DNA of 64,000 nucleotides from Bacteroidota bacterium. Its GTDB lineage: Bacteria > Bacteroidota > Bacteroidia > NS11-12g > UBA9320. The position numbers and the translations under genes were made by a program. Of the stretch, positions 13,423-47,666 are shown piece after piece. How positions within the stretch are numbered: position 1 is the first letter of the stretch; every line of letters begins with the position of its first letter. Below the pieces are notes generated by a model, which saw only the letters and a list, made by a program, of their open reading frames with translations, was not told the origin of the DNA and did no database searches. The stretch is taken from assembly GCA_013359235.1 (NCBI GenBank), contig JABWCE010000014.1, forward strand, positions 1 to 64,000, given 5' to 3'.

Positions 13423-14328
13423 TCATAATATCTCAGCAAATATTTTGTTAAGGTCATTGTCCAAGTTACCATTGTATTCCTTGTGAGGAATTTGCAAATT
13501 CTCCAACGCCAACTTAAATCTTTTCCAACCGTCTTGGCTCCGCATTTCAATCCAATTTATCTGTAAACTTTCAAGTTGATTTTTGTTTTGAATTGAAAGT
13601 TTGTCAGCAACAAAAACATTTGTCGCCCTTGCTATAACTGCGTCAGCACTTTCAGGATTACCGCTTCCCATCAGTTTTACTTCGCACAAAAATTCTTTAC
13701 CGCCTTTGAGTAAGTAGAAGTCAATCTCTCTGTCAAAACCTTTTGCTTTGTCTTTGATAAATTTTGCTTTGTAATTATCGGGACTTACAGAATAAAGTTT
13801 GCAAAGTGTTTTCATCAGAGGATTTTCAACTCTCTTTCCTGCTGTGCTCCAAAGTCCGCCACGAAGCTCTGCCCGCTTAACAGCAAGCGTATTGATTACG
13901 ATTAAACTTTCGCTAACATTCAAATCAACCGAAACGCCTTTGAATTTTATCGTCAGCGTTAAATCAAGTTCGTGTTCGCTTTCAACCAAGTCCTTGATGC
14001 TCTGATAAAGAATGTCGTAATGTTCATTTGCTGCATCAATCACAATCTCTTTGGTTGAAGAGTTGAACATATTGTGAATGGTCTTTTTGTTCAATCCAGA
14101 ATTAATGGCTATTTCATTCGCAGGTAATTTCGGATTTAGAAATGCCTCTTTATACCAGTCAACTGTTATATTTTTGTTTTGAAGTTTTGCATCAATAATC
14201 TTTTTGAAAAACTCTATTGCGAATTGCAAAAATTCTGCATTGATAAGAGTAACTACTTCTATTCTGTAGTCAGCACCTTTTAAAAGTTTCTTGATAATGT
14301 TTTTGGCTACTTGTTCTGTTAGTGTCAT
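13423..14328 (-). CDS. Type II restriction endonuclease, CfrBI-like
   Basis: A 301-residue protein. The C-terminal half carries a PD-(D/E)XK-type core: FDREIDFYLLKGGKEFLCEVK, where the Asp and the ExK are the expected metal-binding and catalytic residues. Together with the arrangement beside an SPPY-type methyltransferase it looks like the CfrBI restriction enzyme family, which is known to cut CCWWGG; recognition here is inferred, not shown. The N-terminal half is helical (LNKKTIHNMFNSS may be a helix-turn-helix-like segment). Its start overlaps the methyltransferase stop by four bases (ATGA), so the methyltransferase is translated first, as expected for self-protection. Base composition appears higher in G+C than the neighbours, a sign of transfer. 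Confidence 0.75.
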   Translation of the reverse strand: MTLTEQVAKNIIKKLLKGADYRIEVVTLINAEFLQFAIEFFKKIIDAKLQNKNITVDWYKEAFLNPKLPANEIAINSGLNKKTIHNMFNSSTKEIVIDAANEHYDILYQSIKDLVESEHELDLTLTIKFKGVSVDLNVSESLIVINTLAVKRAELRGGLWSTAGKRVENPLMKTLCKLYSVSPDNYKAKFIKDKAKGFDREIDFYLLKGGKEFLCEVKLMGSGNPESADAVIARATNVFVADKLSIQNKNQLESLQINWIEMRSQDGWKRFKLALENLQIPHKEYNGNLDNDLNKIFAEIL

Positions 14329-15698
14329 TTGATTGTTTGATGAAAATCTTTGAGTGATAAAAATTTGGTTGGATACTCATCAAACATTCCATTTGATTTT
14401 TTGGATTGCATATAGCCAAAATAACTTTCGTCTTTTTCAGTGAGGAAAAAGTATCTGTCTAAACTCTTTGCTGTTTTACCGACTGTTCCGCTTCCTCCGA
14501 ATGGGTCAAACACTAAATCGTGTTTGAAACTGTAATACTGAATTACTCTCTTGCACAACTCAACAGGGAAAACCGCTGAATGAACTTTGTCAAAACAAGG
14601 GTCAATCTTCCAAACATTTGTTGTTTCAAATCCATCTGCAACTTTACTTTCTTTTACAGTCGTCCAATCGTATTGGCGAATGTTCCAGTCCAAAAGTTTT
14701 TCAGTTGATTTTCTGTAAACCATTAAATATTCTGTCACACTGTTTGGTTTGTAGCCAAGCGGTTTTCGGTGCTGCTGAAAACCGCCAATGCGGTTTTTTA
14801 CACTCGCTTCTGGTTTCATCCAAACAATATCATCAATAAACTCCCAACCCATTTCCATCAAGTATGGATGAATGTCAAACGGAATTGGATAACGCTTGCT
14901 ACTGTGAGAACGGCTAACTCTTGGAATTATAATCGGTGAAGTGTTCACGATTAAAAATCTTCCTTCTTTTGTAATGCGATGAACTTGCTGAAAAACATCT
15001 CTCAAAAATTCAAGGTAATGTTTATAGCTTGGATAAATTGAATAGTCCCGTGCGTTGTAATATGGAGGCGATGTAAATGTGAGATGCACACTTTCATCTT
15101 GTAAAAGTTTCATTGTTTCAATGGTGTCGCCATTGACAATTACATTTTTCAAATAATCAAAACTTTCAGTGTGTGGTTGATGGGAAGGAGTTTTTTGCGT
15201 AGCAAAAAACTCCTTGTAAATTACCGTTCTCACCATTTCGTTTTGATGATTAATTAGTGGCTGCAAATTTTCTTCAACATCTTTGTCGCCTCTGAAAACT
15301 AAAAGCCCTCTGATTGCTTGGCACACAACTTTTGGGTCATTGTCATTGAGAACTTCAAAAAGATATTTTTTTGCTTTCGGGTTTCTCATTCGTCCGATTG
15401 ATGAAACCGCCTCTCGTCTTACAGTCGTGTCCTCCTCGTTTTGAATTACTTTTTTCAAAAGTTTCAAGTAGTCCTCATTTGAAAGTTTGCCAATCGTCTT
15501 TACAGTCCAAAGGCGAACATTGGAACTCTTATGTTGAAGTAAGTCAGGTAAAAAACTGCCGTCAAAGTCGTTGGGAAGATGTCCCAAGTTTTCAAGAATG
15601 AAGCTTATAGAACTACTGTCGCGGTATAACTTTACAAGGTGTCCAATACCACCGTTTCCTTTTGATTTTACCTCTTTTATGTGTTCTTTGGTCAGCAT
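14325..15698 (-). CDS. DNA methyltransferase (N4-cytosine/N6-adenine, SPPY type) with N-terminal HEAT repeats
   Basis: A 457-residue protein in two parts. Residues about 1-165 are HEAT-like helical repeats (VRREAVSSIGRM, VVCQAIRGLLVF). From about 175 is a beta-class DNA methyltransferase: TSPPYYNARDYS (catalytic motif IV, near 209) precedes FDPFGGSGTVGKTA (motif I, AdoMet binding, near 402). SPPY favours N4-cytosine but does not exclude N6-adenine. It protects DNA against the CfrBI-like nuclease encoded next (4-base overlap). HEAT repeats on a methyltransferase are uncommon and may act in protein or DNA contact. The linker between the two parts encodes a perfect 14-bp hairpin (see repeat at 15185). 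The gene looks foreign in composition. A TACCTTTG -7-like element lies 22 bases upstream. Confidence 0.88.
   Translation of the reverse strand: MLTKEHIKEVKSKGNGGIGHLVKLYRDSSSISFILENLGHLPNDFDGSFLPDLLQHKSSNVRLWTVKTIGKLSNEDYLKLLKKVIQNEEDTTVRREAVSSIGRMRNPKAKKYLFEVLNDNDPKVVCQAIRGLLVFRGDKDVEENLQPLINHQNEMVRTVIYKEFFATQKTPSHQPHTESFDYLKNVIVNGDTIETMKLLQDESVHLTFTSPPYYNARDYSIYPSYKHYLEFLRDVFQQVHRITKEGRFLIVNTSPIIIPRVSRSHSSKRYPIPFDIHPYLMEMGWEFIDDIVWMKPEASVKNRIGGFQQHRKPLGYKPNSVTEYLMVYRKSTEKLLDWNIRQYDWTTVKESKVADGFETTNVWKIDPCFDKVHSAVFPVELCKRVIQYYSFKHDLVFDPFGGSGTVGKTAKSLDRYFFLTEKDESYFGYMQSKKSNGMFDEYPTKFLSLKDFHQTIK
15185..15215. repeat. Perfect 14-bp inverted repeat inside the methyltransferase gene
   Basis: AAGGAGTTTTTTGC and GCAAAAAACTCCTT flank a 3-base loop. 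The hairpin is fully in frame and encodes KEFFATQKTP, exactly in the linker between the HEAT repeats and the methyltransferase domain. The match is perfect. It may be a chance palindrome, a palindromic insertion tolerated in a linker, or a regulatory hairpin. Confidence 0.9.
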
Positions 15699-35166: not shown

Positions 35167-35451
35167 TTAAGGAACATTCCACATTTCGGTGTATTTGTAA
35201 ACCCATCGCTTATCAATTTGATTAAATCCTTTAGGGTTACTTACCAATTTAACTTGTAAATTTTCAACATCAATAGCTTTTTTGAGCTTTATGCTTACTT
35301 GTACTTGAACGTCAGTTTTGTATTTAGATATTTTCGCAGCTTCAACAAACTCTATTTCTGAAAGTTTGTATTTCATTAAGATTAACCATGCTTGAGCATC
35401 TCTATCTTTTTTCCAATCGCTAAACTTTTCAACTATATCGTCTTCTAAAAT
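35167..35451 (-). pseudogene. Remnant resembling a type II restriction endonuclease
   Basis: The track lists only 69 residues from the ATG at 35376, but the frame is open further upstream to about 35451 and reads DDIVEKFSDWKKDRDAQAWLILMKYKL before that ATG, so the start is missing. The following segment (KTDVQVQVSIKLKKAIDV, KLVSNPKGFNQIDKRWVYKY) reminds me of a type II restriction enzyme family; the recollection is not backed by a search. It stops at TEMWNVP, in mid-domain, so the C-terminal part is lost too. It lies directly after the 185-residue nuclease-like gene. Probably a decayed gene. Confidence 0.45.
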
Positions 35452-36002
35452 TCATTATATTCTTTTGAATTGTAAATTAATTTCCAATTATCAGAATTTT
35501 GCCATATTTCAACTACAGAGTTAGAGTATTTATCCTTATAATTTTCAAATTCTTTGTACATTTTCCTTAATGGAATTGGAAATGTAACATTTATTTTAGG
35601 TGTAAATTTAAATTTCTTATGCTTTGTTAATTTTTTAGATAGATTCATCCATAGCTCTAATTCAATTAAGTCTTGTTTCGTATTAGAAATTTCAAGTTGT
35701 GTTTGTATAAATGTAAGTGCTTTAGTTACAATTACAACATTTTCAGGAAATAATACAAAATAAATCCAGTAATCTCGTTCAAAAAAAAGTTTATCAATAG
35801 CTCTTACACCATTAATTGCAATCCATTTATCACTATTCTGCATAGTTTTAATTTCAATTTTCCGAACTTTTCCGTCTTTATACACCGATAAGCCATTAAA
35901 TCCAGAAAGTCTTTTAACAAGTTCAATTTTAGCACCTTTAAAAGTTTCCAATGAACATACAAGTCCTGTTCCTATTTTTTCTAATGAATTACTATGTTCC
36001 AT
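35445..36002 (-). CDS. Putative nuclease-fold protein of unknown function
   Basis: A 185-residue protein without signal peptide. Residues about 20-100 have the look of a restriction-endonuclease-like core: GAKIELVKRLSGFNGLSV, then KVRKIEIKTMQNSDKW (ExK), then RDYWIYFVLFPENVVIVTK, as in DUF3883-like and other PD-(D/E)XK-type domains. The C-terminal half is lysine-rich helical. It starts 8 bases after the 76-residue gene and ends beside the restriction-enzyme remnant, so it may belong to a small defence or restriction locus. AT content looks higher than that of flanking housekeeping genes. Function is inference only. Confidence 0.55.
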   Translation of the reverse strand: MEHSNSLEKIGTGLVCSLETFKGAKIELVKRLSGFNGLSVYKDGKVRKIEIKTMQNSDKWIAINGVRAIDKLFFERDYWIYFVLFPENVVIVTKALTFIQTQLEISNTKQDLIELELWMNLSKKLTKHKKFKFTPKINVTFPIPLRKMYKEFENYKDKYSNSVVEIWQNSDNWKLIYNSKEYNEF

Positions 36003-36010
36003 TCCTCATT

Positions 36011-36241
36011 TTATATAGCATTAGGATTAAGATACTTATCAATAGAATTTTGAATAGCAGTTGTTAATTTATAATATAAAATTGCATTTTTTGAATCATT
36101 ATCAGCTATTCTCTTTGATTTAATAATTTTATTATTGTCATCAAAATTAAATAATAGATTAGAACAATCTGGCATATTTACATGGATTTCTTTTTTCATT
36201 GTAATCAAACAATTTTCATTATATATTTTTTCGGTTTCCAT
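36011..36241 (-). CDS. Small hypothetical protein, first gene of the AT-rich locus
   Basis: A 76-residue ORF. Its first residues (METEKIYNENCLITMKKEI) resemble the start of many SPPY-type DNA methyltransferases (IYNENCLxTM), but no methyltransferase motif follows; the rest is Asp/Asn/Lys-rich and ends in a helical segment. It could be a methyltransferase start fused to unrelated sequence by deletion, or an unrelated small protein. It precedes the nuclease-like gene by 8 bases. Weakly supported as a functional gene. Confidence 0.4.
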   Translation of the reverse strand: METEKIYNENCLITMKKEIHVNMPDCSNLLFNFDDNNKIIKSKRIADNDSKNAILYYKLTTAIQNSIDKYLNPNAI

Positions 36242-45903: not shown

Positions 45904-46746
45904 TCAAACTAGAGCATTATCAAGCAACCTAACATTACAGTAATTTACGGCAGCAAGAATTACAGATTCGTTTTTAATAAATTCATTATTAAAAGCTGTT
46001 AAATTTCTTCTGTTAACTATTTCAAGATACTCGAGTTCTGCATTTTCAGTTGAGTTAATCATATTTTTAGCTTGCTGCAATGCTATTGAAAAATCTGAAG
46101 TTAAAACGTTTTCTTTTAATTGATTTAAAATAGAAAATAAAAATCCTGCTTTAGTTCTGTTTTCTTCAGATAATCTGCTGTTTCGCGAACTCATTGCCAA
46201 ACCATTTTGTTCTCTTTTTATTTCACAAACATTAATTTTTATTGGCAAATTCAAACTTTCAACCATTTTTTTTACAATTAATGTCTGTTGAAAATCTTTT
46301 TGACCTAAATAAACATTATTTGGTTCTACAAATTCAAAAAGTTTTTTTAAAACATTTGCAACACCATTGAAATGTCCAGGCCTGAGTTTACCTTCAAAAA
46401 CACTATCTAAGCCATTAAAATCAAATTTTTCAGGTATAAAATTTTCAGGATAAACTTCATTTGCATCGGGTAAAAATAAAATGTCAACACCTGAATTTAC
46501 AAGCATTTCAATATCTTTTTCAATTGTTTTGGGATACTTAATTAAATCATTCTTATCGTTAAATTGTAATGGATTAATAAAAATACTGCAAATAGTTGTA
46601 TCGTTTTCTTGCTTACATCGTTCTATTAGCGAAATGTGTCCTAGATGCAAAGCTCCCATAGTTGGCACAAAACCGGATTTTGAATTTGAATTTTGAAGGA
46701 ATTTTATAGCTTTTTTTAGCTCTTTTACTGTTTTTAGTTGAAGCAT
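45904..46746 (-). CDS. panC: Pantothenate synthetase PanC
   Basis: A 280-residue enzyme joining pantoate and beta-alanine with ATP. Motifs: FVPTMGALHLGHISLIERC (HIGH-like HLGH, near residue 26-44), INPLQFNDKNDLIKYP, GQKDFQQTLIV, and MSSRNSRLSEE (the KMSKS-like segment). Length is normal. Divergent from the starch-synthase-like gene, the arrangement commonly seen in Bacteroidota. Confidence 0.96.
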   Translation of the reverse strand: MLQLKTVKELKKAIKFLQNSNSKSGFVPTMGALHLGHISLIERCKQENDTTICSIFINPLQFNDKNDLIKYPKTIEKDIEMLVNSGVDILFLPDANEVYPENFIPEKFDFNGLDSVFEGKLRPGHFNGVANVLKKLFEFVEPNNVYLGQKDFQQTLIVKKMVESLNLPIKINVCEIKREQNGLAMSSRNSRLSEENRTKAGFLFSILNQLKENVLTSDFSIALQQAKNMINSTENAELEYLEIVNRRNLTAFNNEFIKNESVILAAVNYCNVRLLDNALV

Positions 46747-46807
46747 TATAACAAAAAATAATTAAAATACAAGTGTTTTGTTTGAAAATAATGCCGAAAA
46801 TAAGTTA

Positions 46808-46815
46808 TAATTTTG
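46808..46815 (+). promoter_or_regulatory. Candidate -7 element (TAATTTTG) of the starch-synthase-like gene
   Basis: Exact TAnnTTTG match, 29 bases before the ATG at 46845; it lies inside the longer ORF that the track starts at GTG 46773, arguing for the later start. Confidence 0.4.
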
Positions 46816-46844
46816 TAATTGAATTATTGAATAGTAATTTATCT

Positions 46845-47666
46845 ATGAAAATTATGCGAAAAAAAGTATTATTCGTGTGTTCAGAAATGAACCCATTCCT
46901 AAACACTTCAAGTATTTCAGATATAGCAAGAATGGTGCCTCAAGCTATACAGGATAACAACAATGAAGTAAGAATTATGGTACCAAGATTTGGAGTTATC
47001 AACGAAAGAAGAAATAAGCTGCATGAAGTAGTGAGATTATCGGGGATGAATATTTCGATTGACGATAACGATAATCCATTGACAATAAAAGTAGCTTCTA
47101 TTCCCGGAACAAAAATGCAAGTTTATTTTTTGGATAACGAAGATTATTTTCATCGAAAATTTGTTTATACTGATGAAAATAATCAGTTTTTTTCTGATAA
47201 CGATGAAAGAACGATATTCTTTTGTAAAGGAGCTTTGGAAACTGTAAAAAAATTAGGTTGGTATCCTGATATTATTCATTGCCAAGGCTGGATGACAAGT
47301 TTAATTCCTATTTATCTAAAAACAATTTATAAAGATGAACCCGTTTTTAGAAGCGCAAGAGTGGTTTATTCTGTTTTTAATAATGAAACACATGGTGATT
47401 TAGGACCTGATTTCAGAAGAAAAGCGAGCTTAAATTCAATATCTGATGAAGAATTACATACTTTTGGAGCAGGCGAACTGTCTAATTTACACATAGGCGC
47501 TATAAAGCATGCCGATGCAATTGTAAAGTGCGGAGAGTCTTTACACCCAGAAGTAGAATTACATCTTGAAAAATTATCAGACAAACCATTGTTAATGCAC
47601 GAAGAAGAAGAACTAGCAAATAAGTATATTAATTTTTATGAATCAGTTATGGGTGGCGAAAATTAG
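46845..47666 (+). CDS. Glycogen/starch synthase-like protein (N-terminal GT5-like domain only)
   Basis: The track begins at GTG 46773, but the family start is MKIMRKKVLFVCSEMNPF at ATG 46845, giving 273 residues. It matches the N-terminal Rossmann half of GT5 starch synthases (KVLFVCSEMNPF, RIMVPRFGVINERR, IIHCQGWMTSLIPIYL) but lacks the whole second half, and the KxGGLGDV ADP-glucose motif is replaced by NTSSISDIARMVP. This short form is typical of Bacteroidota beside panC and the DUF4270 gene. It is unlikely to synthesise glycogen alone; its true role is unknown. It overlaps the DUF4270 gene by up to 29 bases. Confidence 0.8.
   Translation: MKIMRKKVLFVCSEMNPFLNTSSISDIARMVPQAIQDNNNEVRIMVPRFGVINERRNKLHEVVRLSGMNISIDDNDNPLTIKVASIPGTKMQVYFLDNEDYFHRKFVYTDENNQFFSDNDERTIFFCKGALETVKKLGWYPDIIHCQGWMTSLIPIYLKTIYKDEPVFRSARVVYSVFNNETHGDLGPDFRRKASLNSISDEELHTFGAGELSNLHIGAIKHADAIVKCGESLHPEVELHLEKLSDKPLLMHEEEELANKYINFYESVMGGEN

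Follow-up and report, generated by a model that had tools for sequence, protein, structure and literature searches.

The window analysed here, a stretch of 64,000 nucleotides from a Bacteroidota bacterium, has between obg and purL an AT-rich interval (35167–36241) that raises the question of whether its ORFs are the debris of a restriction-modification (R-M) system, a small defence system with a new effector, or chance ORFs. Three minus-strand ORFs are present between the two genes, just as the initial annotation had placed them: ORF 1 (36011–36241, 76 aa), ORF 2 (35445–36002, 185 aa, intact) and the frame of ORF 3 (35167 to ~35445, 94 aa without a start codon and 69 aa from the first ATG). 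The GC content of the ORF stretch was ~19–27% in 500-bp windows versus 37–41% in the adjoining obg and purL coding windows, and the GC skew was reversed across the stretch. The three are evidently not chance ORFs, because the frame of ORF 3 matches R.HinP1I families and the 185-residue ORF is conserved with low dN/dS. No second copy of the locus was found in the genome, where the sole other match was a 52-bp stretch. By all appearances, a type II R-M locus of the HinP1I type was acquired horizontally here; its methyltransferase (M) and restriction endonuclease (R) have been destroyed, and two middle genes have survived. Comparison of the obg–purL interval in relatives, proposed as a check in the initial annotation, revealed no conservation: the closest relative, G001, has the two genes ~16 kb from each other and oppositely oriented, other relatives have them on different contigs, and therefore the genus provides no clean empty site.

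The frame at 35167–35445 (minus strand), described earlier as lacking both start and end and resembling a type II restriction enzyme, was identified as R.HinP1I by Pfam, PADLOC and PDB matches (PF11463, 1.2e-22, 80.9 bits, above the curated cut-off of 25; PADLOC REase_II, 1.3e-36; PDB 1ynm, 1.2e-26). It aligns to chain residues 18–107 of 1ynm and covers residues ~18–107 of 247. Intact HinP1I relatives at two other loci, L037 and L038, have 251 and 247 aa, respectively, and compared with them the window frame lacks ~18 residues at the start and ~140 at the end. The start codon and the ~247 aa of a full-length R.HinP1I family member are thus both missing, and in contrast to R.HinP1I itself the window copy, which has no start and has had its C-terminal ~140 residues deleted, is evidently a pseudogene.

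The intact ORF 2 (35445–36002, minus strand) encodes the 185-residue protein, a member of an undescribed family. In a scan covering 84,980 species genomes, we found 16 homologous loci (L003–L018), a count that is a lower bound; together with the window and a decayed second copy in the genome of L011 (L075), the family occupies at least 18 loci, in seven phyla (Bacteroidota, Chloroflexota, Planctomycetota, Acidobacteriota, Verrucomicrobiota, Nitrospirota and Gemmatimonadota). In 14 of the 16 homologous loci, identity to the window ORF is 44–91% over nearly its full length, and the protein retains ~50% identity between phyla, with 60 residues invariant across 14 full-length sequences. Its dN/dS was 0.05–0.10 for the window copy against the five closest homologues (L003–L007) and 0.04–0.15 over all pairs in the group of HinP1I-type loci described below as group A. 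A housekeeping family was ruled out, as none of 96 genomes from the same genus, family and order has the gene. A phage or plasmid origin was also considered, and no match to the protein was found in plasmids, phages or viral contigs. We found no description of this family in the literature and, as far as sequence comparison can tell, it is a new, conserved and R-M-associated family.

The ExK nuclease-like core that the initial annotation had seen in this protein held up in one half. E50 and K52, which make up the ExK half of a PD-(D/E)XK active site, are invariant (14/14), but the catalytic Asp before the ExK strand is an Asn (N36; GFN instead of the expected GYD, 14/14) and the similarity to NOV_C (PF13020), detected in 14 of 14 members tested with a best value of 3.2e-4, stays below the Pfam cut-off of 22.1 bits in the members listed (16.4 for the window, 21.1 for L010 and 19.1 for L012). 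Another acid such as E19 could substitute for the missing Asp; since the change from Asp to Asn is found in all 14, the candidate nuclease may be altered or inactive. The structure search that had been suggested for a PD-(D/E)XK fold returned weak PDB matches, which include DpnI, Hjc resolvases, SPARDA nucleases and the homing endonuclease I-Ssp6803I, but none at E≤0.001, and the AlphaFold2 models used were of low confidence (pLDDT 63–64, with the first ~46–50 residues unresolved). We regard the protein as weakly PD-(D/E)XK-like and as a candidate nuclease. NOV_C/DUF3883, which has been termed a novel REase domain (PMC3710099), has the same ExK-centred core, whereas the 185-residue protein differs from it in the sub-cut-off scores and the Asn, and also has ~100 extra conserved C-terminal residues and a stand-alone small protein beside it at R-M junctions.

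ORF 1 had been read as one gene with a methyltransferase-like start and no motifs. The start was confirmed: its first 14 codons (METEKIYNENCLIT) plus ATGAAAAA (36194–36241, minus strand) are a stub of a DNA methyltransferase. At the protein level, the stub agrees with the methyltransferase of L003 (MELEKIYNENCLITMK...) in 14 of the first 16 codons, and the L003 protein goes on to TSPPY and DPFMGSGT motifs (PF01555, 2.2e-33). Motif IV (S/D)PPY and motif I FxGxG are absent from the window copy, of which the 14 N-terminal codons remain. ORF 1 is not one gene, however, but this stub fused in frame by a deletion to a second conserved gene, hereafter the small gene, which is intact, encodes 62 aa and has its own ATG at 36199 (36011–36199, minus strand). 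The sequence ATGAAAAA occurs at codons 15–16 of M and at the start of the small gene in L004, and is the fusion point in the window; therefore, most of M was probably lost by a deletion between short repeats. In L006 most of M was lost likewise, with ACAG as the microhomology. The small gene is separate from the methyltransferase in L003–L006, where its homologues (54–60% identity by tblastn) lie directly upstream of the 185-residue gene, and its dN/dS was 0.14–0.28. No family in Pfam, NCBIfam, PADLOC or PHROG matched it above the curated cut-off, and homology among the small genes of group A, of L017 and of a second group of loci, group B, could not be shown.

Group A comprises the window and L003–L007, with the order M – small gene – 185 gene – R.HinP1I. 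This order is near-complete in L003 and L005 and, together with the homology of the M and R remnants, bears out the earlier proposal of a decayed R-M system. M is cut after codon ~14 in the window, ~109 in L006 and ~221–225 in L003 and L005, and is gone in L004 and L007, so that no adjoining methyltransferase is left at the window, L004 and L007. R is cut at its start, frameshifted (L003), reduced to its end (L007) or gone. The dN/dS of the M and R fragments of L003 and L005 was 0.11–0.13, indicating that these genes were functional until recently and that the pair of small and 185 genes may merely decay more slowly.

Elsewhere, the genome of the window retains intact SPPY-type methyltransferases. 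At 13423–15698 (minus strand), the window has a further type II R-M pair, distinct from this locus and apparently intact, which consists of a REase (PADLOC PDLC03496, 1.9e-104) and a 457-aa methyltransferase of the SPPY type. Another intact methyltransferase (L109:791–1612; G000:C25, ~46300–47100) is 52% identical to the lost M of the locus and is followed by a Cys-rich ORF of 155 aa that is HNH-like by eye only.

Group B is based on a different system, M1 – R – M2, in which R is DpnII/BanI-like. In L045–L052, which are without the pair, this system is a compact intact operon with an open R frame, the M2 start following the R stop within about 0–40 nt; in L053, also without the pair, R is split. 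All M1–R–M2 loci with the pair are truncated, and every deletion takes in the R/M2 junction. In L009, R extends to aa 317 of ~326 and M2 begins at aa ~25, with DPPF changed to DQPF; the corresponding figures are R 231 and M2 195 in L010, M1 411 and M2 125 in L011, M1 407 and M2 180 in L016 (R being gone in both L011 and L016), M2 193 with only the tail of M1 in L075, R 173 without M2 in L013, and M1 4–38 only in L014. The M2 debris begins 0 to ~30 nt past the stop of the small gene in L009, L010, L011 and L016. The remaining loci are more varied: L012 lies at a contig edge and no R-M debris was seen there, L008 and L015 have BanI-like R fragments and a methyltransferase or a fragment of one, and in L017 a HinP1I variant that ends at aa ~93 is followed by a different small ORF and a 185 fragment. 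The decayed second copy in the genome of L011 (L075, G499:C13) lies between the M1 tail and the M2 fragment, and its 185 gene contains stops while the small gene is still open. We also observed that a 66-aa relative of the small protein of group B stands alone (L115:1465–1665, reverse complement; G430:C403) in a genome with an intact M1–R–M2-type system and without the 185 gene.

Taken over all loci, type II R-M debris adjoins the 185 gene in 15 of 18 and falls into three or more kinds (HinP1I with an SPPY methyltransferase, the M1–R–M2 system, and BanI-like), an association whose strength is limited by shared ancestry and by all pair-bearing loci being from metagenome-assembled genomes. An intact R-M system flanking the 185 gene was found at none of the 18 loci; at least eight homologous systems without the 185 gene are intact (L045–L052; also the HinP1I-type L037 and L038). 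At the 14 loci with an intact 185 gene, the small gene is intact in 10 and R and M in none, figures that are biased in favour of the 185 gene because the loci were found by a search with an intact copy of it. The 185 gene is whole with the small gene broken or not detected in L007, L008, L013 and L015, and is itself broken in L016, L017, L018 and L075, two of which (L016, L075) still have a whole small gene. In the least damaged loci, M and R are hurt mainly at the ends that face the pair (M in L003, M and R in L005, R in L009, M1 in L011 and L016) and are otherwise open, with the frameshift in R of L003 as the exception. The retained R, M1 and M2 pieces compared had no internal stop codons, and their dN/dS was low where measurable, indicating that the damage is recent and lies mainly at the pair-facing ends. 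The occurrence of the 185 gene beside broken R-M systems of several kinds in seven phyla looks like a pattern and not like chance decay.

Evidence on mobility came from L012 and L014, two loci from different Planctomycetota, which share a ~630-bp block that is 86–98% identical and covers just the 185 gene; the block ends at the small gene (54–70%) and the flanks are otherwise unrelated. Therefore, the 185 gene appears to move as a unit, and the block supports the existence of a putative cassette. Between L012:349–1184 and L014:4992–5847, the 185 gene has ~92% DNA identity (dS 0.38) and the small gene ~60% (dS 1.59); the small partner may have been swapped or may be diversifying much faster than the 185 gene. 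In L009 a repeat of ~140 bp lies between R and the 185 gene (L009:4223–4391) and ends in AAATTAGCAGCATAA (-KLAA stop), and a short form of the repeat end is likewise found before the 185 gene at L010, L011 and L075. The repeat is rare in the genomes concerned. Its copies in the host genome (L090:2156–2297; G000:C1), G013 and G492 form the C-terminus of a methyltransferase or of another gene, often with -LAA stop; in L116, L117 and L125 it is followed immediately by a nuclease or partner gene, and in L121 it adjoins a truncated methyltransferase. No copy was found in the window. R-M gene modules may recombine at the repeat, and in Bacteroidota the repeat, with its '-LAA stop' ending at the ends of R-M genes, may as such a recombination point give rise to the preference for R/M junctions.

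The explanation that we prefer, and hold with about even confidence, is a decayed HinP1I R-M locus with a surviving cassette that recurs at M/R junctions, in which the 185-residue protein would be a gated nuclease with a small partner. Homologies, gene order, deletions, conservation and association were observed in its support; that the 185-residue protein is an active nuclease, what the small protein does and what acts as the trigger are inferred. Microhomology-mediated and other deletions, starting at the cassette edges and running outward, would have taken nearly all of M and most of R and spared the small and 185 genes, and the survivors would belong to a cassette found repeatedly at the M/R junction of unrelated type II R-M systems, whose M and R are truncated in every case. 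The 185-residue protein would be a PD-(D/E)XK-like nuclease acting with a fast-evolving small protein as its variable partner or specificity element. Being modification-dependent (type IV-like) or otherwise gated, such a nuclease would spare unmodified host DNA, so that no protective neighbouring methyltransferase would be needed. A nuclease that attacks the methylation of its neighbour could be retained only beside a dead methyltransferase, and this would account for the lack of intact R-M neighbours. The persistence of the pair without an adjoining M in the window, L004 and L007 rules out a classical restriction enzyme that relies on an adjacent M for protection, and a type IV reading would be compatible with the M-less neighbourhood of these three loci. 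We take the pair to be part of the R-M gene pool and, most probably, a defence module of the nuclease type, with a predicted biochemical function. A general dependence on N4-methylcytosine was weakened as a candidate, because SPPY-type methyltransferases are kept in the host genome, and a Vsr-like repair partner of M was disfavoured, as the 185 gene appears to be kept where M is gone. The 'new effector' of the initial annotation survives as a conserved, undescribed, PD-(D/E)XK-like and non-housekeeping family that outlives its R-M partners, with a plausible but putative role as an effector. A more far-reaching version, which we put forward only tentatively, is a new mobile defence or anti-R-M cassette that settles at R/M junctions of unrelated type II systems and breaks R and M together, for example as a modification-dependent nuclease unable to coexist with the methyltransferase of the host system.

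Other explanations have to be weighed against these. The two proteins may be ordinary accessory subunits of R-M systems, such as a regulator or an extra nuclease subunit, that are the last standing in decaying loci, and we consider this possible but doubtful. The pair does lie inside the M–R operon order in group A, where M, R, small and 185 genes have compatible relationships and low dN/dS, as expected for a co-evolving unit, and the 185 gene itself is broken in four loci; however, none of the loci found combines the pair with an intact R-M system, the pair-less systems are complete operons, the pair accompanies unrelated R-M families, and the damage to M and R in the least damaged loci, apart from the R frameshift of L003, lies mainly at the pair-facing ends. 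Plain decay, in which the two middle genes of a dying locus are by chance still unhit, is unlikely: the conservation between phyla, the 60 invariant residues, the low dN/dS and the small gene being so often intact where R and M never are all stand against it, even if the breakages of M and R look recent and the loci were picked by their intact 185 genes.

R-M systems are addiction modules, in which the loss of M alone is expected to be lethal. For a selfish homing-like element, R-M genes would be a safe target because a joint knockout of R and M is viable, and the 185 gene as such an element is an unlikely reading. Consistent with it, or with a mobile insertion in general, are the discrete block in unrelated flanks (L012/L014), the empty R/M2 sites in relatives (L045–L052), the ~140-bp repeat before the 185 gene (L009) and before nuclease genes behind a methyltransferase and another gene (L117, L125), and the weak model matches to I-Ssp6803I. 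Yet no splicing context (intron or intein), no defined target site and no inverted repeats or target duplication were recognised, the breakpoints in the target genes vary between loci, and the flanking M and R diverge between loci about as much as the element does. That the pair is a toxin-antitoxin module, with the 185-residue protein as the toxin and the small protein as the antitoxin, that displaced another addiction module is very unlikely, because a 185 gene that is intact beside a broken or undetected small gene (four loci) does not fit it; a two-gene unit of a conserved large and a variable small partner, with a small-gene dN about 3–7 times higher and a position of the partner that switches sides between groups, would be in line with it.

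In the preferred reading of a surviving cassette, what is of interest is the repeated placement of a new 185-residue family at broken R/M junctions. A family preserved at such junctions with both genes truncated would offer a natural way of disarming R-M systems, and its repeated siting at unrelated R/M junctions would amount to a defence-gene conflict of a new kind. If the protein is a modification-dependent nuclease, type IV restriction would gain a small and compact family, and the rivalry of methyl-specific nucleases with methyltransferases could be tested directly.

Among known systems, the DpnI/DpnII systems, with the dpnC/dpnD gene pair, are one of the nearest precedents. Streptococcus pneumoniae carries DpnI or DpnII as alternatives (PMC3573125). 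The likeness is that a modification-dependent nuclease can replace an M/R system, and the models of the 185-residue protein gave weak matches to DpnI; in contrast to DpnI/DpnII, no sequence homology was shown, the cassette in the window lies inside truncated R-M genes, and its modification dependence is hypothetical. Methyl-specific nucleases such as McrBC kill cells that acquire a methyltransferase (PMC2614495), and the R-M system PcaRCII and a methylation-dependent nuclease coexist only through silencing of the nuclease (PMC8989522). The incompatibility between a methylation-dependent nuclease and a methyltransferase follows the same logic as that proposed here, whereas the protein families are different and the conflict ends there in killing or silencing, and here in physically broken R-M genes.
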